A program made the position numbers and the translations under genes. Shown here piece by piece: positions 172-61,144 of a stretch of 64,000 bases of DNA. This stretch comes from Arctopsyche grandis (taxonomy: Eukaryota > Arthropoda > Insecta > Trichoptera > Hydropsychidae), in contig NC_135358.1 in NCBI RefSeq assembly GCF_051622035.1, positions 14,880,001 through 14,944,000 of the forward strand, given 5' to 3'. A model generated the notes under the pieces. That model did not search any database. It worked only from the letters and a program-made list of their open reading frames with translations, and was not told the DNA's origin. Numbering within the stretch: the first letter of the stretch is position 1; each line of letters starts with the position of its first letter.

Positions 172-3100
172 ATGGGGCCGCAACGGCGGCGGGCTCCCGA
201 GGTGGGGGCTCCGCCATGGGGGCCCGCAGGCCGAGCAGGAGGAGTCCCCCACAGGCCGGTGCGCCCCCACCATCAGCTGCCCAGAGGACCTCGACACCCT
301 AATATCCCCCAACACCACATCAACATTTCACACCAACATCAGCATCAGCATCAGCATCAGCATCAACACCAGCATCAGCATCAGCACCAACACCAGCAAC
401 AGCATCCGCAACAGAGACTTCGACCGCCCAGGTTCCATACCTTAGTTCTCTTTCATTGTCTATTTACCGCACTTTTTACTTTCGGCAGACGTTAGTCGAA
501 TTCGATGCCAGATGTCTCATTTATGTTAGGCGTATTTTACAGTAACATCGTATTGTTTTCATTTTTGAAATTCGCCTCTGACTATCTGGCTATCACTCGT
601 CGATTCATTGAGCATTTTTTTTTAATATATACATTATTTCGTAAGAAAATGAAAAAATCTGTCGAGTCAACAGAAATTTTTGAGACAACGTAATTTTTGA
701 TATTCGAAACTCCATGAATCTTTTTTTTGTAAAAAGGTAAAAGCAAAATTGTATGACCTTTGATATTAAACTAAAGTATTATTATTTATCTTCATGATAT
801 TGTTTTTATAACGCGAAAAAAAAATTACGAGGTAAAGAAAAACAGTATTTTAAAGCTTTTTTTTCAATTTTTTTCGATAATAGTTTTAGCTTCTGATTAT
901 AATTTGTACCAAGCATTTATCTGGAAAGTCTGATCTCATACATATATCGATTCCTTGGTATTAATGAGATAGTTTATAATATTATAATTTTTTCAGCTCT
1001 TTGCAATAGTCAAATCTAATTGCTATTTAATATCTATATGTTTTTCAGAATATATTAAGATTTAAAAGGCATCATTTCTCAGAGTGAAAAATAAGCTAAA
1101 GTTTATGTTGCTACAAAAAACTTAAGTGCTAATTTCCTTTTTTTATGACTAGATAATGAGGGATTATATTTTTATGTTCATATTTAGTATATATATATAT
1201 ACATATGTTTTTAATATAATACTTAAATGACAACAAAAGAGGTACCCAAAGTACAAAAAGAACCTATTTGTTTGCAAAAAGAAAATGTTCGATTATCCGA
1301 ATAAATTTGTTAATTTAAGTACAGTATGTATCTATGTATCTTTATAAGTTGTTCCCTAATTAATAAGATAATTTATTTTGATTTACAGGCCTAATTTGCA
1401 ATGGAGTACAAATGATATGCAACAATTTGCCGCACATGCGTCTCTATGGCAACATCCCGCTGTCCCTTCGAACATAAACAATAGTAATTATCGGATGAGT
1501 GTTCCTTCTCAACATTACCCACATCCCAGATTGAATTGGAATCCAAGTAATCAACTTCAAAGGAATCCAGCTGCATCTACATGGAACTATCGCTGTCGTC
1601 CTCTTTTGCCGCTACCTCACCATTCGCCTTCCTTCAGTAATGTGAAGACTGATCCCGTAGTGGAAAAAGCTAGTGACGCTAATAAACCTTTTGACAAAAC
1701 TTTGTGCGATGCTATTGATACAGTTAAGAGAAAATTGAGGGAGCGCAAGTTGAGCGAAACTCATAGAGAAAAACTCACTCTTGTAGCGGAGTCTCAATCG
1801 GAGGAATCTTCCGTGAAAATGCCTGAAAAGAAGCGGATTGAACATGCTAAATTTTCACCCAAAACTCTAGCCCCTAAGAAGGTCGAAAAAAAAGAAGAAA
1901 AAGTAAAAACTCCAAATTCTTCCGGCGTTGGAAAACCTGAATATCGTAAAAAATCTCAAGTGTTGCGAAGAAAAATATTGCAGCAATTATTTAAGTTAAA
2001 TAATAATAATCTTAGACAAGTTTTAAGTCAGCCAGAGTCTTCAGCCAAATATAACTTTGCACTATCTAGTTTAATAAAAGATACCCGAAATATGCTCAGT
2101 AAAGAGTTGAGAAATGTGGCTGAGAAATCTTTGAAATTTCACAATATTTCCGCAAATACTGAACAAGGTGAAAAAATTGTGCAAGATGCATTCTTAGGAC
2201 ACCTGGGAACGATGTTGGATACTAATGCTTCTGTAGAATTGTTCAATATGGATCCTCAAATCATAAACGAGCTCAGCAAGGTTTTGCAAGAGGATTTGAT
2301 GGGATGTATGAACGAGGAAGTATCAGTAAAAAATTTAGCTGATGTAATGCACGAATCTATAATGGAAGAACCAATTGATGATAGTCATTCTTCAAAACCT
2401 TATAATTCAAATAGGATACACGACAGAATGAATTGCAATTATTCTTCAGCCAGTGACTCGAATAGTGATAGTGTTATGCAAGGATTTAGTAATCCTGTAT
2501 ATTTTACGAAATTAAAATGTGAAAAATTTGATTCTGGATATCATGATCCATATCACGACCAAGTTGCAATTCCTACAGAAAACTTAAAAACTACCGAACC
2601 ATGTGAACAGATCGACTATTCTGAACTCAGTTCTAATTCATTTGTAAATAAAAGTCTAGAATATCAAAAATTTTTGGAATCTCTGACAGAAAGTAATGAT
2701 CATGAATCGGCAACAGCTGAAGTAAAGGATTCTACTGTGGTCAAGAAATTTAAAGATTCTTGTAACCCTCCAACCAGTGAACAGAATAATGACACTTCTA
2801 GGGAACAGATTTTAAGAAACTTTGATATTGCTACCAACAAATATGAGACGACATTTAATAATAACATGGAAACTTCTAAAAAACTTAAGCAGATTAAGCC
2901 CAATTTACCAAAAGAATTACTCAAATCTAATAATGTAAATATTGATCAAGTTAAGGAATGTGATTTAGGTTTAAAGCTCTTAGGTAATGTGAAAAAGGAA
3001 GTGGTATCTCCAGATAGCAAATCTGATAACCGAATTGATTCCTCACAAAAAAATCATAATATAAAAATAATTTCGACAAATGATTTGTATAGTACTTTTC

Positions 3101-6100
3101 AAAGTAATGACACAAACCCATTTTGTTTAGAGCATTTATTTAATGGAAACGTATTATCAAACACATCTCAAAGTTGTGACGTTATAAACAATGATAAAGT
3201 AAACGAACCCCCTGCTAATATTTTACCAATTAAAAGGCATTCAATTGATAAATCTGATAGAAAAAGTAAAGAATCGAGAAAAAAAAATAAAAGGAGAAGA
3301 TCAAGACAACGTAAGTCAAAAAGTAATAACGAGGAAAATTCATCAATATATGATGACACAGTGCCAAATAATTTAATTATACAGAATAATTTTCCCTCAA
3401 ATTCTAATGAAAATCCTGAATTGCGATCACCACTCCCTTCAACTGAAAATTTGAAAATATCCAACAACAATGAATCCACAGTGAATCCAAAATCAAATGA
3501 ATCTCCGGTGAATCCAAAGTCAAATGAATCCACTGTAAATCCAAAATCAAATGAATCTACGGTGAATCCAAAATCAAATGAATCCACGGTGAATCCAAAA
3601 TCAAATGAATTCACGGTGAATCCAAAATCAAATGAATTCACAGTGAATCCAAAATCAAATGAATTAATAGAATCGATACACAAAAGTGATGGTAAATCTG
3701 ATAAGATTTCTCTTGTTGATATTTCGAAATTATTAGTCAAGAAAGAAAAAAAGCCACAAGATAAGTCGAAGGAAAAACATTGTTTGATTAGAGATCAAGA
3801 TGTTTCTACAAAGAAAGTATTTACCAAGTGCCAAGGAACTCAATATTACGATTTTGGAAAGGTTAGTGCATCTTCGCAAGTGTATGCTTCATTAATATTT
3901 TCAAAATCTAAAGGCACCCAATCAACCAAAATGAATTGTAAAGATAATTTTTGTCAAACGTTGAAATGTATTGAAGGTCTGAATGAAATGAAAGAAATAA
4001 TCGAAACATCGGACAAAGATTGTCAAACTACCGAAATGTTGAGCATTTCAGTCTCTGAAAAACCTGATAAAAAAATAATGGTCAATAAAGAAGTTCAAGT
4101 AACAATGACTTCGGCGAAGGAGGGCATTAATAAAGAGCAAACTTTAAAACAAAGTGATGTACTAAATAGAATGAAAGAGATTGATAGCAACATTCAATTA
4201 TTGGTCCAGGAAAAATTGGATTTGTATAAAATGTTTGAATCGAACACATGTACTAGTGATAACAAGAAGTATAAATTAAAAATAAAATCAGGATTTGTCT
4301 CGAATGTACCAGAGTCTCCACAGCCACCGAAAAACATAGTTAAAAAATCAAAAATTAAAAATTGTGTTTCATTTAGCAGTGAGAAGTCATGTATATTAAA
4401 AGGCAGTGGCGATGCAATTCATTCTTCAAACAATAGGATAAAATCTCGTAAAAACCTTTTGGAAAAAAATAGAATTAATGAATCACTGTCAGGAGATAAA
4501 AATGATTCAAATAGATTAAAAAAGCAGAACAGTAATAGTGATCCTAAATCGAGTGATTCTAGTATACCCTCATATAGAATGCGTAAAAGAATTCGAGCCA
4601 ATGCTGTAAAAGAGAATAAAATGACTCATCGCAAAGACAAGACGATTCAAGGGTCAGACCATTCTAAATCAATTACTGCCATACCTAATAATTCTAAAAT
4701 TAATCAGGATTTAGAAAACGTTGAAATGTGCCATAATCCAACCAATGTGGTTGAAAATAGTAATTTTGCAGAGAATTCACCTTATTCAAACGTCATCTCT
4801 GAAGAAGTAATAGATAATTGTTTAGATTTACAAAACGACAATAAAAATGCTAATAACAAATTACAAAACAAAATAGTCTGTAAAAGAAAAGCAAGAAGCA
4901 TACCAAAATCAGCTAGCTCTTCTTCAAAGAAGTCATGCAATTTAGTTAGAAAAAAGACACCGTTATCGGCTTTGATGGCGGAATTAGAAAAATGTGGCGA
5001 CGATACAGACCTGGATTTTATGGATACTTCGGTAGTAAAAAGTGAATTAATAGCAAACGATGAAAATTTAGATTCTGGTAAAGTTCCACCTTCTAATTTA
5101 AAGAAAAAGTATAATTTACGGAATTGTACAGTAAATTTGGAACCAGTCAATGTTTCTAGTGGCTCTTCAAACAATTATTGTAGTCCGGATGGAAGCATTG
5201 AACACAATAAAGAAATTTTATCCCAAGGATACAGCGATGAAGATTACAATATTTGCCTGGACGACATAAATAGTGTCGAATTTGAAAGCTTGACGGATCC
5301 TGATATTCCAAGTATGCTGGAAAACATTGGAGGTAATGAAACAATGACCCTAATGGACAACTGGGATTCGAAGTTGTTCGATAGTGTCACATTGTCTGAT
5401 AGTGTTAACGTTTTTGATGAATCATTAACGAATGAGAAAGCAGATCTTAATTTGGACATTGATCATTTGCATTCAGCTGACACATGCATTGAAAAAGACG
5501 TTGAATTTATTGAAAATATAGATCAAATGGTATACAATTCGAATACAAACATTTCTCTAACCGACCATTCTGATTCAATTATTGCAATAGAGGTAAGATT
5601 TTTTTTAAATTAACTGACTTTCGTCAAGTGATATTTTTGAAACATATATGTACATGTATGATATTTACTTTCATTGCAGTGCGTTGGGGACAAATTTCTT
5701 GCTGCTTCAAAAGATGGAAATGTTTATTATTATTGTGCAATCCGTGGAATTCTTCTGTCTAAAATGGAATGCTCGAATTTAGCTATAACTAGTCTATGCA
5801 TAAGGTCAAACTTGGTTTACACAGGATCATTGGACTCGAATTTGAAATGCTTTAATTTCCTTGTAATTAATTTGTTAATTGATGTATTTGAAAATATAAA
5901 GGTTTTTATAGAATTAACACATTTCTTTTCTTCTTATTTAGACCGGGATGGTATTACAAAGTGGAATAAATGTCGGGAGTCCCATTCAGAGTATGTGCTT
6001 TGAATGGGATATAATTTATGTCGGAACTAGAACTGGATTCGTTATTCAATTTAATGTTAAAGTAAATATTTTAATATATTCCATATTGTATACGTAATCA

Positions 6101-15649: not shown

Positions 15650-15750
15650 ATCTGTGGTGTTTTCTTTTTTTTTTTACCAATCCCAGCGCTTTAATTGTAT
15701 TATTTGTGTATAAATATGTGAATTCGTTCTTGAACTTACACAGTAAATAC

Positions 15751-16138
15751 GGGTCTACGTGACGAGACAGAATGTTAAATTACAGAAAACACAAATATCG
15801 GAAGGCAAAGATCGAAAATCGAAAGATCTTAAGTCGAAAGATAAAAAAAGGGTGCATGGTAAACGGTACATACTCACTTAATTTGTGCGAGCAGGGTACA
15901 ACAGGAACAAGAGGAACAGGCTTTTCCTCCCGTATTCTGCGCGCGCACATTAATACGGGAGGAAAAGCCTGTTCCTCTTGTTCCTGTTGTATCCTGCTCG
16001 CGCAAATTAAGTGAGTATGTACCGTTTACCATGCACCCTTTTATTTATCTTTCGACTTAAGATCTTTCGATTTTCGATCTTTGCCTTCCGATATTTGCGT
16101 TTTCTGTAATTTAACATTCTGGCTCGTCACGGAGACCG
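15751..16138. mobile_element. Mutator-like palindromic transposon, intact copy
   Basis: The element is almost wholly two inverted arms of about 180 bp around a short spacer near 15.94 kb (GCGCGCGCACATT). It begins GGGTCTACGTGACGAG and ends CTCGTCACGGAGACCG, and is flanked on both sides by the exact 9-bp direct repeat AGTAAATAC (15742-15750 and 16139-16147). Long inverted repeats with a 9-bp target duplication are the Mutator-like hallmark. There is no transposase, so it must be mobilised in trans. It lies just downstream of alpha-2/delta copy A. Confidence 0.85.
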
Positions 16139-16173
16139 AGTAAATACATACTTCCTATGTAAAACCTCAAACA

Positions 16174-16807
16174 CAGTGGCGTAGCTACCGCACCCGCAGA
16201 CCCCGCAATGCGGGGGGGCGCCACGAAGCGCGCCTTTTTCACTGATTTTTTAATTTGTTCCGTTTTTTTTTGAAATAACTTTTTTAAAAACTTCTCTTAT
16301 TTTTCAACCTATTTGTACTATATGTATGTATGTACATACATTATTATACATATTTTGAATTCATCCTCATTTTATAATTGTTCTATGCTAATATGGCTAA
16401 AAGACTGTCGTCTTTTTCCATATTTTGAACGTCAATGCCACTTCAACCTATTTGCTGAGAATTCTCTTATTCTTGTATATATTTTTTCAGTGTGTAAACA
16501 ATAAAAAAAAATTATATGATTAAAACCAATAAAATTTATAAATTTTTCGCTGTCACCATTAACAGGTGGGAAGTTTTTAAGGAAAATTCACCATCAGTTA
16601 CTTTAAACAGATTGTGCACTGCTTGCTGGTCGTCCAGATTAAACTATGAATGCACTTCGATATATATGTAGATACGTAAAAAAGGTATAAATTATTAATT
16701 TGGAAAGTTATTTTGCTGTAAGTAAATAATATTCATATATGGGGGGGGGGGGGGGGGGGCGCCTTAAAATATTTTACGGGTCACCAGGAATTCACGCTAC
16801 GTCACTG
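16174..16807. mobile_element. hAT-like non-autonomous element
   Basis: The ends are CAGTGGCGTAGC and, inverted, GCTACGTCACTG. The flanking 8-mers CTCAAACA and CTCATACA differ at one base, fitting an 8-bp hAT target duplication. The interior is non-coding, with a G run at 16741-16759. Confidence 0.7.
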
Positions 16808-29400: not shown

Positions 29401-32400
29401 ATGAAATATCTGAAATTTAGAGTCATCTCTGAAAGAAAACAAATTGATTGATCAGCATCATTAATGGGAGGTGTTGTGTGTTGTACTTGTCCCTCAGAAC
29501 ATCACAGAGAATGTGCTCGTTAACGAAGCTTACTGGGTCACTGTGACCAGAGAGGTATATCACCGATTCAAATCTTCAGTAAAAAAATAACAGTATCAAA
29601 TTCGATTGGTTGCAGTTGACTTTGTTTTATTAATTTCCTTAAAAAAGTTATTTTTGTAAGCCCTCCTAGCAAGTGTGCATATTGTCCTGCTAGAGACAGA
29701 GCCAGTGTTGGAGTTTAGAGGAACTTAATTGGTTCCGTAGCGGCAGATTATAGAAGTCGTGGCAGCCTCCTAGAACTAAAGACATGTTTACATGTCTTGA
29801 ACTCACCTATAGTAAAATATTACCAAATTTATTTTTATCATCAGCCCATATAAGTAATCACGCTTGATTTTATATTCCAAACAAGTACACAGTATTATAA
29901 ATAAGTATTTCAGCAAATAATCTGGTGAGTAATTATTTAGATTACTCCCTGGAATATGTACTGTATAAGGAAACTTATCCGGGTTTTTTCTCGGTATGAG
30001 CTGCGTAAAAATAAAGATATTTTACCATGGGTTTTAAAATTATATTACGTAAAAATATTGAAAAATATTGGCTTGTAGTTTGTAGTTTATAGTCATTTAG
30101 TTTGCCACGATAAAAAAATGTTGTTTTTTACAAGTAGACCATTAGGGTTCTTTTAAAAGAAATAAAATTTTTTCAGGATCGCCAATTTATGAATTTATTA
30201 ATAGTGATTTTTATAAATGCGTATTGATTGATTCTTTTTATTAATTGTATGAATATGTATATCCTTAAATTGTACATGTGTTTATTATTTTAAATATGAA
30301 TATTAATTCAGTAGACAAATTTACGTATGTAATATTATAAATATTCATATTCAAAATTTATCGTGTTTCTTAATCGAATGATTTTCACAGTTGAAAAATG
30401 TAAAACATGTGATACTAATACCGTATTAATGTGAAAATATTTCATTTCACACATCACATGTATGTATGTATTTATGTAGGTATCGATTAAGATATACAAT
30501 ATAGTTTTACATATATAGATTAACAAATGTTTACTTAACTACTAAACAAATATATTCTTTTGAATGTCTTTTTTACTATTACTAATTAATCTACTGTATC
30601 TATCAAATTATATTAATGGATACGCAATGAGCACGCAGTGTTAGAATGAATGTAAATAGTATGAAAATAAATTAAATAAAAATAAAACGGATTTTTATGC
30701 ATCTAAATTTTGGTGCTTAACAGACGCTGTTATATTTAGATGAAAGTTTTTGAACTACATTAGTTAATTACAGTATATAATTTCGTTTGTTGCTATTTTA
30801 TTATCATAGGTCTATAAGTAGTTGATTCAAAAAATAATAATTGATTGAGTACAGGAGAGTTTGTTGTACATATACATATAATGTTTTCCAATGTAACAAA
30901 TTTAGAATAAAAAGTTGTGGAAAAACAAGGTAGATTATATAGAATTTTCACGATATTATTCAGTAATGTACAAATTTTACAATAAGATACTTTTGTAAAT
31001 AATAATATATACATAAACTATTTTTTAGTTCAAATGATTTTTATTAGTTGCTTTATATTGTACTTTAAGAATGTTATTAATGCGAATTTTGACGATATAC
31101 CTTCGTTATGAATTGTGTTTGTATTCAAATGTACGTATTATGGGAAGTAAAAAATATGACATTTTGATATCATAGTGGGTATAATTGGATCAAATGATAC
31201 GATCGACGTTTATTTTCTTAATTTTTATTTTATGTAGATCATCGATTCTGACAATTGTTCGTTTCATTTCTTGTAATCATTACAAAGCAGTTCACTAACA
31301 TGATTTTATGTATATGCAGACCCGTGTAGCCAATCTACTGGGTGTGGCCGGAACTGACGTACCGATTCAGGATATAGAAGCTCTCATGATGCCCCATCAG
31401 GTAATAATATACATACATATAAATATGATCTGGTTTATTTTTGTCAAATTACACATATATTTATCAATTAATGTGTTTATTGCATTTATGAATAGTTGGG
31501 AGTAAATGGTTACGCCTTCATTGTTACCAACAATGGGTACATCTTAATCCATCCAGACCTCAGACCAGTTGTAAGTTCATCAATTGTATATGCACATATG
31601 TATTTTTGTAAGCTAATTGATTTTAATTTAGTAAACAATGGGAGAAAATATATTGAAAAAAAATGTCAATGAAATAATAATAAAAAAAAATAATTTTAAT
31701 TTCAGTTTCAAGACATTTTAAAACCAAGCTATAATAGTGTGGATATGGTCGAAGTAGAACTAATAGACGACGAAAGAGGTCCAAGGGATTTTAACGAAGA
31801 ACTTATAAGTGTATGATACGATTTTTAGGGGTCTACCTCACGGGCCGGAATGTGAAATTACAGAAAACGCAAATATCGGAAGGCAAAGATCGAAAATCGA
31901 AATATCTTAAGTTGAAAGTTAAAAAAAAGGGTGCATGGTAAACGGTACATACTCACCTAATTTGCGCGAGCAGGATACAACAGGAACAAGAGAAACAGGC
32001 TTTTCCTCCCGTATTCTGCGCGCGCATATTAATACGGCATAATAATACCGTTTACCATGCACTCTTTTTTTTTGATCTTTCGACTTAAGATCTTTCGATT
32101 TTCGATCTTTGCCTTCCGATATTTGCGTTTTCGGTAATTTCACATTCCGGCTCGTCACGAAGACCGGATTTTTAGTCACACATGATTTTTCAAAATACAA
32201 TTTATTTATTTATTTCTATATTTGTTTTCAGTTCCGTGAAGAAATTCTGAGCCAAAGAAATGGCAGCAGACATATGCAAGTAAAATATCATTTTGATAAT
32301 ATGGTAATATTTTTGTATGATTTTTTAAATGTTTATTTTAAGAATTATATAACAAAAAATGAATTTAAATTAAAATTTATTTTAGAAAAGGGTGTTTCGT

Positions 32401-35400: not shown

Positions 35401-38400
35401 AATAAAAAAAAAAAGATTTTTGATAGTAGATTCAATGATTTAAATTTAAATAGAATTTTTGTGATATAACATAAATATTATAAGTTACAAAGATGTGTGT
35501 ATTATGCTATTATACGTTGTACAATATTAAGTCTTTTATCAGATGTTAACTTTAACACCAAATTTGAATGTTTTATTTATTTATTTATTACATCGATTAT
35601 TGATGATAAATTATTCCAATATTTGTGTAAATAAGATATTACAATTAATCAAGTTTAGAGTAATAAGAAATATTTTGTAGCTATTCAATGGACAAGTGAG
35701 TATGTGTATGTTTGTATATTAATGTGATTATTTATATATTTCAGGAAATCATAATTATGGAAATTCGATGTCATGTCATGTTAATATCATGCTAATTTTC
35801 AAATTTAATTTTTTTAGGAAAGAATTCATTCAAAGATTTGGAATTACTGTGGCTTTTATGGCAACTCATAGTGGTCTTACAAGATGGCAATCATTCCCTC
35901 AAGTTTCATCAGATGATACAGAAAAAATTGACACGTGATTAAAATATTTTGATTAAATATTTTACAAATGTTGATTAAGTACACTTGTTTCTTTATTTTT
36001 CGTTTTTAATTTGATTCTAGGCCGGAATTTGGTGAAAAATATCCAAGAGCTATCGATGAAGTTTGGTACCGCCGCGCTGTTGAGCAACATTATTTCGAAC
36101 CTCAAAGCTTTGTGTATTCAGTAGATTTTAACGCCGGTGAAAAGGTAGTTGAAGGAAGTCCAGGACCACTAGTAACAGCTTCACATGCAGTTTTCCACTC
36201 TGTAGAACAGCATTCAGCTCCAGCTGCCGTCGTAGGATTTCAGTTTCATCACACAAGTCTGCATGCACTCTTCATAAACAATACGTCATCGGTATGCTAT
36301 ATTGTGATATGTACATATATCTTACTTTTTATTTAGTAATACTATTATTAATATTATGTTTTATTTTTAAAAGTGTGGAAAATTAATGCCTTGCCCAAAA
36401 ACTTGCAAATCTGATGAACTCGATTGCTATGTATTAGACGATAACGGATTTGTAATAGTAAGTGAAGCTCCAAAAGATGCAGGTCGATTCTTCGGAGAAG
36501 TAAAGCCATCAATTATGAAGCAGTTGGTGGATGAAAAAGTATATAAAAGTGTTCATATAACAGACTATCAAGCAGTTTGCTTTGAAGAAACCGATAGTTC
36601 GAATCCAGCTCCCAATCTTTTAACGGTTAGCATTTATTTTTTTAACATATATTATATACATAATGGTTACAACTAAATGTTTCGGTAGTTTATTTTACAT
36701 ATTTCTTTCAAATTGCTGTTTGAAACAGAGGTTGTTTTAAAGACTTTAATTATTCAACAGCCATTTGTGTATCTACGGAACGTTTTGGGATATATAATAA
36801 CATACCTTTTGTGGATTTGGCAGCACACGTCGATTCTGACATCACAAACCTATGGCTACTCGTATCCCAACGAAGATGGTAAGTTTAAATTGACTGAGCG
36901 TTTTTTCTGTGATGCTATGTACACTGTGGTTGACATGGCTTGTTCGTAGTGAGTATTATTGAACGAATATTGTTTGTTTGCAAGTCATATATGTTCGTAA
37001 CTAAAAGTTACTACCTCCACATATATAATTGACGGGAAAACGAACTCTCTTAACTTTTTAATATATTTAATTATACTGTCGTGAAGTTGGTGAACTTTAA
37101 ATATATTGATATTATTTAACATTAATCGATAAAAAGTCCAGAAATAGTCATTTTTAATAAATTCGGTCTTCATTGATTGGTCAGGTTTTTCAACCAAAAG
37201 TCCAAAATTTCGGTACGTGTGATTTATTCACACAAGTGAAGAAATATCAAAAGCTCTTTTATAATGCAAAAAGATTGTTCGAAACATAATTTAAATTGAA
37301 AAAAGCTAAATGCAATTAACATATAACATACATATGTATGTATGTATGTGACATGTGCATACATATATATGTGTCTACATGTATGAGAAAGAATCATACA
37401 AATTTTTCAAATCAACCCCACGTAATGCACACGTTTTAGAACTATGGTTTAGAGTTGATGCTACCCAATTTGATTTAGGTCTGTGGAATGCTTGTTTACT
37501 GTGTCCTTCTTAGCTTCGTCTATTAAATAAAATATATGCATATTTTAATTTTTATATACTATCCATTTATTGTGTTAATTATAAAATGAAACCCAATAAA
37601 GCTGACACAATATATAAAAAACACCCCCACCCCTATTTTTTCTATTATATTTTACCGAGAGTGAAGTAATAACACAGGTGCATACTCGTATTCATATACA
37701 TATACACGAAGTTTTATGATCGTGAGAAAATTCAACTTTGAGATTTTTACTTATTTGTACTAAGTATTGATCACTGATCTGTTTTCATAGTTTTAATTTT
37801 AAATGTATCTATAATTACATACATACATATCAGTGCCGTTCCGTGGAAATCTCTCTGTTTTTGTCGCACAGCCTTATTTACATATGTGTGCGCTAGCAGG
37901 ATACAGGAGGAAGGCTGCTCGACAAAAACAGAAAGATTTCCATGGCACGCCACTGATGTATATATAATTTTATCTCGACATTTTTTTTCAAAGGTTAATA
38001 TGATGGATTGTTTTATAAATGTATATATATATTATAGAAACTTAAATTTATCAATACTCATCCTCTTTCTTTGGCTTCCTAAGATATTACGAGTAACATA
38101 CTAAAAAAAAAGCCAATTAATTATTTTTATGTACTGTGTTATTGCATCATTTGCGGCAAAATATCTATTTATATGTGTAACATGAGCTATCTATTTCACT
38201 CTGAACTTAAAATTGTGCATGTTAAGTGGAGATATAATCAAACAAGTATTTTCGTCTACTTTCATATACCTAAGGTTTTCTCACATTTCCCGAAATTTCC
38301 AAATTATCATTCCGTTCATTATACACATGTTAAGAGTAATCACTTATTGAATGTATTTATTATCCAAAAAATGATTACTTTTAAAATTTTGTGTAGTTAT

Positions 38401-44926: not shown

Positions 44927-45295
44927 GGGTCTACCTCACGGGACCGAAAGTGAAAGGGTCGAAAAAGCAAATATCGGAAGGCAAATATCGAAAATCGAAA
45001 GATCAAAAAAAAAGGTGCATGGTAAACGGTACTATGTATATATAATATATATATATGTGGCATGCGGTGAAATTGTCTCTCTTTTGGTCATACAGCCTTG
45101 TTTAATGTGCGCGCGCAGGATACGGGAGGAAAAGCCTGTTTCTCTTGTTCTTGTTGTATCCTGCTCGCTCAAATTAAGTGAGGATGTACGACGGGGGGGA
45201 GAGAGACTTTTACCGCACGCCACTGATATATGTACTAACCGTTTTTCATATGTATACATGATAAACGAATATTTTCGACTTTTTCACGGTCACCC
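44927..45295. mobile_element. Mosaic palindromic element with nested hAT-like MITE
   Basis: The left end matches the Mutator-like family (GGGTCTACCTCACGGG...GGTGCATGGTAAACGGT). The interior at about 45055-45225 is a separate unit with GGCATGCGGTGAAA and ACCGCACGCCACTG ends. The right outer arm differs from the left one. 55173-55553 is the same composite in opposite orientation. Confidence 0.65.
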
Positions 45296-47013: not shown

Positions 47014-47136
47014 TTTTCTATCGAACATTCCATATACATAATTAGGGTTGCCATACGTCCCATATATACGGAGTTGTCACTGTATTTCACTATTTGTCCT
47101 GTTTTCTCCCTGTATTCTGTGTGAGATTTCGCACAT

Positions 47137-47405
47137 TGCGATCTTTGCTATAAAAATCGCGAATACGTATTATCTTGCAATTGAGTTCTCGTTAGTATGA
47201 TATTGCAAGATTATTCCGCACAAAACGTCTCGCACACGTTACTAAAATCTCGATCACGGAACATCTGGCACTCGAAAATTTCATCCATCGAGATTTACTC
47301 ACGTGAAATATCATACTAACGAGAGCTCGAGTGCCAGATAATACGTATTCGCGATTTTCGCATCACAGATTGTCGTTTGCGCGATCGCAATGTGCGAAAT
47401 AATCC
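47137..47405. mobile_element. Foldback element with ~75-bp inverted arms
   Basis: The left arm (CGCGAATACGTATTATCT ... GTTAGTATGATATT) is repeated inverted on the right (AATATCATACTAAC ... AGATAATACGTATTCGCG). The centre contains ATTCCGCACAAAACG. It is related to single-arm copies at 6.76-6.95 and 59.73-59.87 kb. Confidence 0.7.
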
Positions 47406-48149: not shown

Positions 48150-48276
48150 TCTGTATTCTACGCGCGCACATTAATACGGGAGGAAAAGCCTGTTCCTCTT
48201 GTTCCTGTTGTATCCTACTCGCGCAAATTAAGTGAGTATGTACCGTTTACCATGCACCCTTTTTTATCTTTCGACT
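48150..48276. mobile_element. Fragment of the palindromic Mutator-like family
   Basis: It contains the central GCGCGCACATTAATACGGG block and half of one arm up to CATGCACCCTTTTTTATC, then stops abruptly just before the hAT-like element. Confidence 0.7.
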
Positions 48277-49479: not shown

Positions 49480-49556
49480 AAGATCTTTCGATTTTCGATC
49501 TTTGCCTTCCGATATTTGCGTTTTCGGGCGTTTCACATTCGGGCTCGTGACGAAGA
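49480..49556. mobile_element. Terminal fragment of the palindromic Mutator-like family
   Basis: One arm end only: AGATCTTTCGATTTTCGATC through CTCGTGACGAAGACCTG. It lies directly before the minisatellite array. Confidence 0.7.
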
Positions 49557-49596
49557 CCTGTTGGGTTTTTGTCATATCGACAGTCGTGACAATACT

Positions 49597-55172: not shown

Positions 55173-55553
55173 GGGTGACCGTCACCGCACCGAATGTTAA
55201 AAAGTCGAAAATGTTCGTTTACCATGCATACATATGAAAAACGGTTAGTATACATATCAGTGGCGTGCGGTAAAAGTCTTTCTCCCCCGTCGTACATCCT
55301 CACTTAATTTGCGCGAGCAGGATACAAGAGGAACAGGCTTTTCTTCCCGTATCCTGCGCGCGCACATTAAACAAGGCTGTATGACAAAAAGAGAGATAAT
55401 TTCACCGCATGCCACTCATATATATTATATATACAAAGTACCGTTTACCATGCACCCTTTGATCTTTCGACTTAAGATCTTTCGATTTTCGATCTTTGCC
55501 TTCCGATATTTGCTTTTTCAGGCTTTTCACTTTCGGTCTGGTGAGGTAGACCC
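55173..55553. mobile_element. Mosaic palindromic element, second copy
   Basis: The reverse orientation of the composite at 44927-45295. It ends GGTGAGGTAGACCC, and an inner unit at about 55258-55417 has CAGTGGCGTGCGG and CCGCATGCCACT ends. Sharing the same nested structure at two loci means the composite itself has transposed or been copied. Confidence 0.68.
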
Positions 55554-56813: not shown

Positions 56814-58402
56814 ATGTTTCGTATAGGCATATTCGCAATTTTATCATTAGTAAAAAAACATTGACCACATAAAATCACTATATGTGCGTGTATTTATATT
56901 ATTACAATATTTACATTTTCATAAATATTTCAGTGCTGCATATGGAGAGTGACGGCTACTTGTAATATTTGCAGTCCAATAACTAATTTTCGATGTACAG
57001 CGTATAATAGATATCAATTTTGCGATGCTACCGGTACGTATTGTATTGTTTTATTTCATTTATTTATACATCACAATTAACAGTTTACTACTAATAATAA
57101 AATATATAGTGCCTGCATATGTATGTACTTGCAATCAATATTTTAAAAATTTAAAGGAACATATGTACATATATTGTATGTTTGTTTCACTATTTGCACA
57201 ATTCAGTATTCACACCAATTTAAATCATTCGCATTGATATTAGAATTATTATATTAATGTTGTCTTTCATCCAAAACAAAAATTGTCTGGGTTCGGTATG
57301 AATTAAAATAGTGTTACACTCGGGGCAGGATACAAGAGGAACAGCCTGTTCCTCTTGTATCCTGCTCGCGCACATTAAGTAAGGCTGTACGATAGAAAGA
57401 TATATAATTTTACCGCACGCCACCGGCGTAGAGGTAGGTTCAGGATAAAAATAAAAGGCCAAATTCGTTTCACTGAATTTATTCAACGATTCAAAAGGTC
57501 CACACGTAACTAACGCTCACTCCAGAATACTTGATCTACCATGAGTACCTCCTTATAAATCACAAGTTGCCCAACACAGCATCCCCGATCCGTTGGCGTG
57601 TCTATTGTCTAGGCACGTAGGTCTACCCATACTCACCCGGTTCTCTGAGAACCCGAGTGTATCCTTTGTTCGGGGACTTACTCAATCCCGTTAGCCTAAT
57701 CCGGGAGGTCTCTTTTGTGAGTGTCTCTATACACCCGATACTCTCTCCTATGTTCCCACGTTACATTAGTATAATATTTTCTTATTATATAGGTCCCGTA
57801 GGTGCCGTTTATACGTGTCCAGCAAACAGCTATTGTTCAACAGTAGGAGGTTCGATTTGTTCAAGTACAACATCCCTAACAATTCCTGAATGTAAATGTG
57901 GCGTATGTGGATTACTACCAACTGCTTCCATCTCAACCACAGCTTGCATTACAGATACTCAATTCGCAATTTGTTTCGGTATATACATGGGTTTCTAATA
58001 ATAATACATAGATATAACAATAACAGAAAATATACATGTATTTATATATATGCGTATCGAATTCTAAAAATTTCAGCAGGTGGCGACATCATTCCAGACA
58101 CTGGTTCCAATAATTGCCCAACAGGAATGGAGTGTGTAGAAGGAAGGGATGCGGCTAATCCTTGCGGTATTCCAACGGTACCCAGAGGCAACTCCTGTCC
58201 TGTTGGATCAGCTCCAGCTCCAGCTCCAGTCTGTTCAGCCACGGGAAGATTTCCAGTCGCAGGAACTATGTGTAAAAACTATAATTTGTGTACGACTCTT
58301 GTGAATGGAACTCTAACTTACTACACGTATACTTGCCCTGGAACGTCTACATTTAGCCCCGTATCTCAAACCTGCAGTACCACATACGTATGCCCTGTTT
58401 AA
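56814..58402 (+). CDS. Secreted peritrophin-like protein with C-terminal chitin-binding type-2 domain
   Basis: Four exons, 56814-56849, 56934-57033, 57793-57978 and 58077-58402, give 215 aa. Exon 1 encodes a 12-residue hydrophobic start (MFRIGIFAILSL), chosen because its phase-0 donor and length match the gene at 52.2 kb. Two Cys-rich modules of similar spacing follow (starting CNICSP and CGVCGL). After a Pro/Ala linker (APAPAP) comes a canonical CBM14 pattern, C-x12-C-x5-C-x14-C-x12-C-x5-C. The family binds chitin in peritrophic matrix or cuticle outside the cell. Exon 3 follows a transposon-filled 760-bp intron. Confidence 0.83.
57321..57424. mobile_element. Fragment of the hAT-like core repeat
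   Basis: A short inverted repeat (GGATACAAGAGGAACAG and CTGTTCCTCTTGTATCC) is followed by the CGCGCACATTAAG block and a CCGCACGCCAC end, as in the nested units at 45.1 and 55.3 kb. Confidence 0.6.
57425..57765 (+). mobile_element. Solo-LTR-like element, 5' end lost
   Basis: It matches 24036-24501 along its length (AAAAGGCCAAA, TACCTCCTTATAAA with a TATA box, final ACGTTACA). Its TGTTG start is replaced by the preceding hAT-like fragment. It occupies the second intron of the peritrophin-like gene and ends 27 bases before exon 3. Confidence 0.58.
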
Positions 58403-59876: not shown

Positions 59877-60201
59877 GCATACTAAGCAACAAAAAAATTG
59901 GCCGAGCGGAGACTAATCAAGTTTTACTAGGTTTGATCCACTAAATTCAAATATGATAATGATTTTTGTGGGCTTGCTATCAATTAAAAATCACAATCAA
60001 TAGAAAAAAATCAATACTAGATTTTGAGTTAAAGATCGAAAAAGTCAAAAAATTGCGCATTTTTTTAAGTGCTCATATATCATAAACGAGAGCAAGCCAA
60101 CAAAAATCAATATCATATTTGAACTCAGTGGGTCAAACTTGGAAAATATTGATTAGCTCCGTTCTGTAAACTCAAAAACGTTTTTGTTGCTCAGTGTAAT
60201 C
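59877..60201. mobile_element. Possible MITE with GAGCAACAAAAA ends
   Basis: The left end CTAAGCAACAAAAAAATT and the inverted right end CTGAGCAACAAAAACGTT enclose 300 bp with internal near-inverted stretches. No clear target duplication is seen. Confidence 0.45.
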
Positions 60202-60841: not shown

Positions 60842-61144
60842 GGGTCTACCTCACGGGCCGGAATGTGAAAATACCGAAAACGCAAATATCGGAAAGCAAC
60901 GGTCGAAAATCGAAAGATCTTAAGTCGAAAGATCAAAACAAAAGGGTGCATGGTAAACGGTTTTTCCTCCCGTTTTCTGCGCGCGCACATTAATACGGGA
61001 GGAAAAGCCTGTTCCTCTTGTTCCTGTTGTATCCTGCTCGCGCAAATTAAGTGAGTATCCCTTTTTTATCTTTCGATTTTCGATCTTTGCCTTCCGATAT
61101 ATGCGTTTTCGGTAATTTCACATTCCGGCCCGTCACGGAGACCG
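60842..61144. mobile_element. Mutator-like palindromic transposon, shortened left arm
   Basis: It starts GGGTCTACCTCACGGGCC and ends CCCGTCACGGAGACCG. The flanking 9-mers TATGTGTAC and GATGTATAC match at 7 of 9. The inner part of the left arm is deleted, so the palindrome is lopsided. Confidence 0.75.

Follow-up and report, generated by a model that had tools for sequence, protein, structure and literature searches.

The window analysed here is a stretch of 64,000 nucleotides of Arctopsyche grandis (Trichoptera, Hydropsychidae), positions 14,880,001 to 14,944,000 of contig NC_135358.1 in assembly GCF_051622035.1. It contains three copies of a palindromic element family, together with asymmetric relatives and fragments (Table 1). 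The original prediction described the three copies as almost pure palindromes, two of them flanked by perfect 9-mers and the third by a 7/9 match, and placed further fragments near 48.15 and 49.48 kb. All three flank comparisons and both fragments were confirmed. The description as a near-pure palindrome holds only for the copy at 15751-16138, which measures 388 bp vs a consensus of 391 bp and has arms of 101 and 94 nt with 95-97% complementarity. The other two noted copies are shortened and carry the ends of a sister subfamily, S. In the copy at 31829-32166, which is internally shortened, arms of 99 nt (91%) are separated by 138 nt, and the copy at 60842-61144 has arms of 76 nt at 89%.

Table 1. 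Members, relatives and fragments of the palindrome family in the window.
Feature	Position	Strand	Remarks
Full G-type palindrome	15751..16138	+	TSD AGTAAATAC at 15742-15750 and 16139-16147
Shortened S-type palindrome	31829..32166	+	TSD GATTTTTAG at 31820-31828 and 32167-32175
Separate hAT-like MITE akin to palindrome core	37831..37955	.	CAGTGCC...GCCACTG; bounds by eye
H-type copy, R-end with internal deletion	44927..45295	+	no matching TSD seen
Fragment: palindrome centre and part of right arm	48153..48276	+	
Fragment: right terminal 79 bp of palindrome	49480..49558	+	
H-type relative, unlike ends	55173..55553	-	L-end at 55553, R-end GGGTGACCGTCACC at 55173; no matching TSD seen
Presumed hAT-like MITE nested in H-type copy	55258..55418	.	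CAGTGGC...GCCACTC; bounds by eye
Fragment of hAT-like MITE that supplied palindrome core	57325..57420	.	right bound by eye; BLAST-related stretch 57325-57392
Shortened S-type palindrome	60842..61144	+	TSD 7/9 (TATGTGTAC vs GATGTATAC)

A BLAST comparison of the palindrome with the window found the palindrome core without its mirror half in the two composites at 44927-45295 and 55173-55553; the MITE nested in the latter is one that we take to be hAT-like. Several other structures lie nearby. Just 3′ of the copy at 15751-16138, an CAGTGGCGTAGC end, presumably hAT-like, and a G-run hairpin begin at 16176. Two further inverted-repeat structures, at 47122-47389 (86 nt, 79%) and 59913-60156 (97 nt, 75%), are unrelated to the palindrome family. 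An open frame of 1413 aa with several tandem SNE(S/F)TVNPK units occupies 1372-5613.

To estimate the size of the family, a 28-nt end pattern with free positions was counted in the 475.7-Mb genome. It matched exactly 3159 times in the forward and 3150 times in the reverse direction, 6309 times in all, and the reversed pattern, used as a control, gave 0 and 0 matches. The window was taken by the original prediction as a sign of high abundance. This is true of the genome, but the window itself is atypical, as it holds 8 exact end matches, about nine times the genome mean of ~0.85 per 64 kb (6309 in 475.67 Mb). When the genome was searched with the copy at 15751-16138, the best 40 of 2351 candidates, the window copy included, were all at least 96% identical and nearly full length.

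The resulting consensus, G, is 391 bp long and self-complementary at 378 of 390 positions; ~20 nt at its centre are unmatched. The inverted arms are thus most of the element, as in foldback transposons, and the members share with MITEs a length below 600 bp, lack of coding capacity, high copy number, TIRs and TSDs. The TIRs exceed 100 bp in I (118 bp at 97.5%) and in S and G (~190 bp at 97%), two further forms and the consensus itself; the ends of a fourth form, H, match over ~30 bp by eye. Tandem-repeat arms of the classical FB type were not found, each arm holding just two 15-nt copies plus one 9-nt pair, and because tandem repeats are nearly absent from the arms we keep the family out of that class. 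The family is therefore a non-autonomous foldback MITE, a cut-and-paste DNA transposon dispersed in thousands of copies, which agrees with the earlier view of a family made almost wholly of arms with 9-bp duplications. A phage collection gave no match to it.

Two longer loci bounded by family ends and 9/9 TSDs were rejected as autonomous copies. One (L080, C1:1531855-1535956), with 4.0 kb between the ends, is a palindrome with two later inserts: a P-type element at the centre, within the CG-rich loop (1234-3851; TIR CATTGAAGTA, 8-bp GCGCGCGC, PF21789 with E 6e-21 in a 340-aa frame), and a second insert in the left arm, near TTAA. The other (L081, 1.2 kb) contains a ~1-kb insert that appears RT-like by eye.

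For target-site duplications 91 loci were read, comprising 39 fetched G copies and the window copy, 20 S, 18 I and 13 H. Two ends could be parsed at 84 of these, the exceptions being L008 (G), three S and three H loci; one S parse with a wrong right end (L097) was counted as a miss, and one H copy at a locus edge was left unscored. A perfect 9/9 duplication flanks 43 of the 84 parsed copies (22/39 G, 11/17 S, 8/18 I and 2/10 H), and 13 more copies match at 8/9 (6 G, 2 S, 4 I and 1 H), while 27 of the 83 scored copies have 7/9 or worse. At random pairs of window positions, 9/9 matches arise at a frequency of 0.0002 and 8/9 matches at 0.0008. An extra G copy at L118 has AACTTTGAG on both sides. 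The 43 perfect target sites display a dyad-symmetric preference, ATAT|RN7Y|ATAT, and their composition departs most from the flanks at site 9 and in the 2 or 4 bases beside each border. In the copies read, the four dispersed forms are alike in the kind of 9-bp duplication and in target preference. Duplications of 8-10 bp, mostly 9, are the Mutator type.

The four forms differ in how far they are palindromic. Form H (394 bp; consensus from 10 of 13 loci) has two different ends, the L-end GGGTCTACCTCACGGGACCG and the R-end GGGTGACCGTCACCGCACCGAATG. Among 1452 candidates for the R-end, the best 40 matched at 99-100%, plus one weak match. H carries a nested insert of 170 bp, GAGTGGCATGC...GCCACTG, with ATATATAT (8 bp) on both sides in AT-rich surroundings; in the H consensus the ends of the insert read GAGTGGC...GCCACTG. 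CAGTG-type ends together with an 8-bp duplication characterise hAT elements, and we tentatively read the insert as a hAT-like MITE. The palindrome core is half of such a hAT-like MITE. L114 (C1:10366100-10366836) has two R-end-like stretches in direct order with ~100 bp between them, which might be what is left of a tandem H.

Form I (389 bp) is H with the right third swapped for an inverted copy of the H left arm. Its consensus matches H 1-274 at 97.8% and then inverted H 119-2 at 96.6%, and the two matches overlap by exactly 4 nt, GTAC, which is its own reverse complement. The same junction is seen at L059, a locus taken for its MULE domain, where H 114-274 is followed by GTAC and by inverted H 119-2. 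If a template switch made this junction, a form with both ends was to be expected, and I-type places were then searched for. Many of the best 40 of 1319 candidates have an inverted arm match adjoining. The 18 of these 40 that were read all have the L-end on both sides, which in part reflects their selection for an inverted neighbour, and measure 375-467 bp with one exception of 626 bp.

Forms S and G consist of the right half of I and its inverted copy. S 189-389 agrees with I 191-389 at 94%, and S 1-120 matches I 1-119. The two halves of S are inverse to each other (96.9%), and where they join at the centre there is an overlap of 2 nt, as judged by eye. The arms thus lengthen from ~30 bp in H to 118 bp in I and ~190 bp in S and G, and the predicted hairpin energies are -160.1, -260.0, -346.7 and -345.8 kcal/mol for H, I, S and G, respectively. 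Both joins, at GTAC and over 2 nt, might overlap by chance.

We consider it likely that this foldback MITE is mobilised in trans by a Mutator-type transposase, and that the palindrome arose by two copy-back template switches, from H through I and S to G. H would have arisen when a hAT-like MITE entered a short element whose two ends, each ~30 bp, were unlike. A strand being synthesised across H would then have jumped from the GTAC at H271-274 to the one at H116-119 of the opposite strand and run back as far as the left end, with loss of the right end and gain of the 118-bp inverted arms of I. The right half of I may then have been copied back on itself, with the 2-nt join near the centre, replacing the rest of the left half and yielding S, nearly all of which is two ~190-bp arms. 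An exchange of sequence between the arms would finally have given G, which multiplied. As transposition presumably recognises the outer ends, which all forms keep, each product could spread.

We infer the order of these steps from several features. Of the hAT-like MITE, H keeps the whole, the palindrome just an inner portion truncated at GTAC. At a single site in the core, I, S and G have T (GAGTATGTAC), against G in H (GAGGATGTAC) and in the H-type window copies. The mean distance of copies from their own consensus falls from 4.0% in H (n = 10) to 3.2% in the I left arm (n = 18), 2.8% in S (n = 15/17) and 1.3% in G (n = 39), a ranking that is weak evidence for the order because copies were chosen for their similarity, most of all those of G.

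The same forms might be related in other ways. Form I, instead of being an ancestor, could have come from recombination of an H element with a palindrome, by ectopic crossover or conversion in the shared core. H, I and S/G do have long stretches in common, and the junction to the inverted arm is identical in I and S/G. A recombinant, however, should have one H-like and one S-like arm, whereas both I arms have CGCCCGAAAACGC after GTGAAA and GGGCCCGAAAGTG before it, which are absent from the H, S and G consensus sequences; in addition, 9-bp TSDs flank copies that belong to I alone. We therefore regard recombination as quite unlikely. Highly improbable is the reverse order, in which the palindrome came first and H and I followed as a hAT-like MITE was inserted and the symmetry decayed. 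In its favour, palindromes outnumber the other forms today and their arms are commonly eroded by deletion, as in the copies at 31829-32166 and 60842-61144. Yet the palindrome has only the inner MITE part whereas H has both MITE ends, so that the missing end would need restoring, and H has the 8-bp ATATATAT on both sides of its MITE, a sign that is AT-rich and weak by itself. The order from H to the palindrome remains our preferred reading.

The two arms have also changed together. The S and G consensus sequences differ in 14 columns, two of them in an A-run, which leaves 12 substituted sites. Eight of these are four pairs that changed complementarily on both arms (15/377, 19/373, 26/366 and 34/358). 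At sites 9 and 11 the G left arm now equals the right arm, and at 41 and 148 just one side has changed. The pattern comes from copy-back in either case, whether one arm served as template for the other after S or the whole palindrome was built again from an altered arm. Mutations of single copies hardly speak for conversion still going on: 39 G copies have 190 paired-site mutations with 5 doubly hit pairs, 3 of them complementary and two of those in L021, and 9 S copies have 0 doubly hit pairs among 69 paired-site mutations.

The suggestion that such palindromes can form hairpins agrees with prediction. The RNA fold of 15751-16138 has an energy of -328.8 kcal/mol vs -91.5 (sd 5.3) for shuffled sequences, none of 100 of which was as low. 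This very stable predicted hairpin, and arms that change together, would also suit a palindrome retained as a source of hairpin RNA, that is, a small-RNA gene, beyond its role as a transposon. Rfam has no match within the window, however, and the dispersed copies with TSDs already explain the family, which makes such retention highly improbable.

The name Mutator-like, given to the family by the original prediction, fits the 9-bp duplications and the long TIRs; the autonomous MULE with matching ends that would go with it was not found at 40 of the 60 MULE-domain loci. The MULE domain PF10551 has 60 matches above the cut-off among 81 scored in the genome. Family ends surrounded the domain at none of the 40 loci read, 20 at ±1.5 kb and 20 at ±3 kb, a count in which long elements could be missed because the first 20 were read at ±1.5 kb only. 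A TSD/TIR scan of the MULE loci gave low-complexity or nested hits only and left the MULE ends undefined. As no MULE with matching ends was found at the 40 loci, the name rests on duplication length, long TIRs and analogy, and by these, with Tetris and FB4 as precedents, we place the family provisionally in the Mutator/MULE superfamily. Palindrome copies near MULE or IS1595 domains (L059, L069, L075, L118) were rejected as element ends, being neighbours only. Separately, L060 and L062-L066 belong to a MULE family of recent origin whose several copies are 97-99% alike over kilobases; beside the gene lies a tandem array of ~198-bp units.

Merlin transposons leave 8-9-bp duplications. A mobiliser of the Merlin/IS1595 type, or of the P type as in the foldback element Galileo, might therefore stand in place of a MULE. 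The genome has 41 IS1595-type matches, and Galileo is both foldback-shaped and P-type (PMC3573991). Against this, the 6 of 41 IS1595 loci that were read are members of another foldback family, which has the ends GGTAAAAGTCGG, and have no palindrome-family ends around them, and the P-type insert in L080 leaves 8 bp, vs 9. We think a non-MULE mobiliser unlikely and favour a Mutator-type transposase acting in trans. The IS1595 loci L115-L120 (~1155-1790 after orientation) form a second dispersed foldback-shaped family, with an IS1595-type transposase fragment in the spacer, arms of 157-214 nt at 84-93% and ends GGTAAAAGTCGGAATTCTCGACAGG.

More speculatively, palindromy itself may be what drives the series: copy-back synthesis may repeatedly convert ordinary DNA transposons to full hairpins in the A. 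grandis genome, G and S having come from H via I and the IS1595-related foldback family independently. Hairpin-templated repair might then keep the arms alike, and a palindromic form might transpose better or be less prone to decay, with the result that every form is displaced by a more palindromic one. We put this forward tentatively and hold it to be rather doubtful. The thousands of perfect 0.4-kb palindromes are in any case candidate sites of fragility and of dsRNA.

Several known systems resemble the family. Tm1, a Mutator/Phantom foldback family of root-knot nematodes, is a known case of foldback MULEs that make 9-bp duplications and include MITE-like members, and growth of TIRs from internal sequence has been reported for Galileo. 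Like the palindrome family, Tm1 has 9-bp duplications, MITE-like members below 0.5 kb, short non-inverted extreme ends and variable arm length; its authors cite gradual TIR expansion (PMC3169594). Its arms, however, are built of tandem repeats of ~14 bp, and one of its members encodes a transposase (PMC3169594), whereas the palindrome family has almost no tandem repeats, is nearly all arm and has no partner found. Tetris of Drosophila virilis likewise has 8-10-bp duplications and no autonomous copy, and was assigned to Mutator by duplication length, but its TIRs consist of tandem repeats and it has three complete copies (PMC4079207). Muta1 and other mosquito MULEs share 8-9-bp duplications, TIRs above 100 bp and hundreds of non-autonomous derivatives; unlike the palindrome family, they have a known and active transposase, subterminal tandem repeats and heterogeneous interiors (PMC5225508).

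For the mechanism, the closest parallels are Galileo and FB4. In Galileo, too, internal sequence reappears inverted and lengthens the TIR, but the element belongs to the P superfamily and its extension is partial, short of a full palindrome, with no comparable step series in the part of the paper available (PMC3573991). FB4/Foldback of Drosophila is non-autonomous, has 9-10-bp duplications and is filed among MULEs by its authors, and their FoSTeST model of template switching with 2-nt microhomology followed by transposition resembles the steps proposed here (PMC8277862). FB4 captures host sequence between ~700-bp TIRs (PMC8277862), whereas in the palindrome family the switch would lie inside the element and make a second arm. 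Foldback synthesis at microhomology is documented in yeast (PMC11724301). Searches of the open-licence literature turned up no case in which a precursor, a one-switch form and a full palindrome occur together and all have duplications. The origin of foldback arms has so far been argued from comparison; going beyond the original prediction, the asymmetric relatives H and I bring precursor, one-switch form and full palindrome together in one genome and reveal the probable origin of the palindrome. With readable junctions and its own 9-bp duplications in each form, both this origin and the concerted change of the arms become directly testable.
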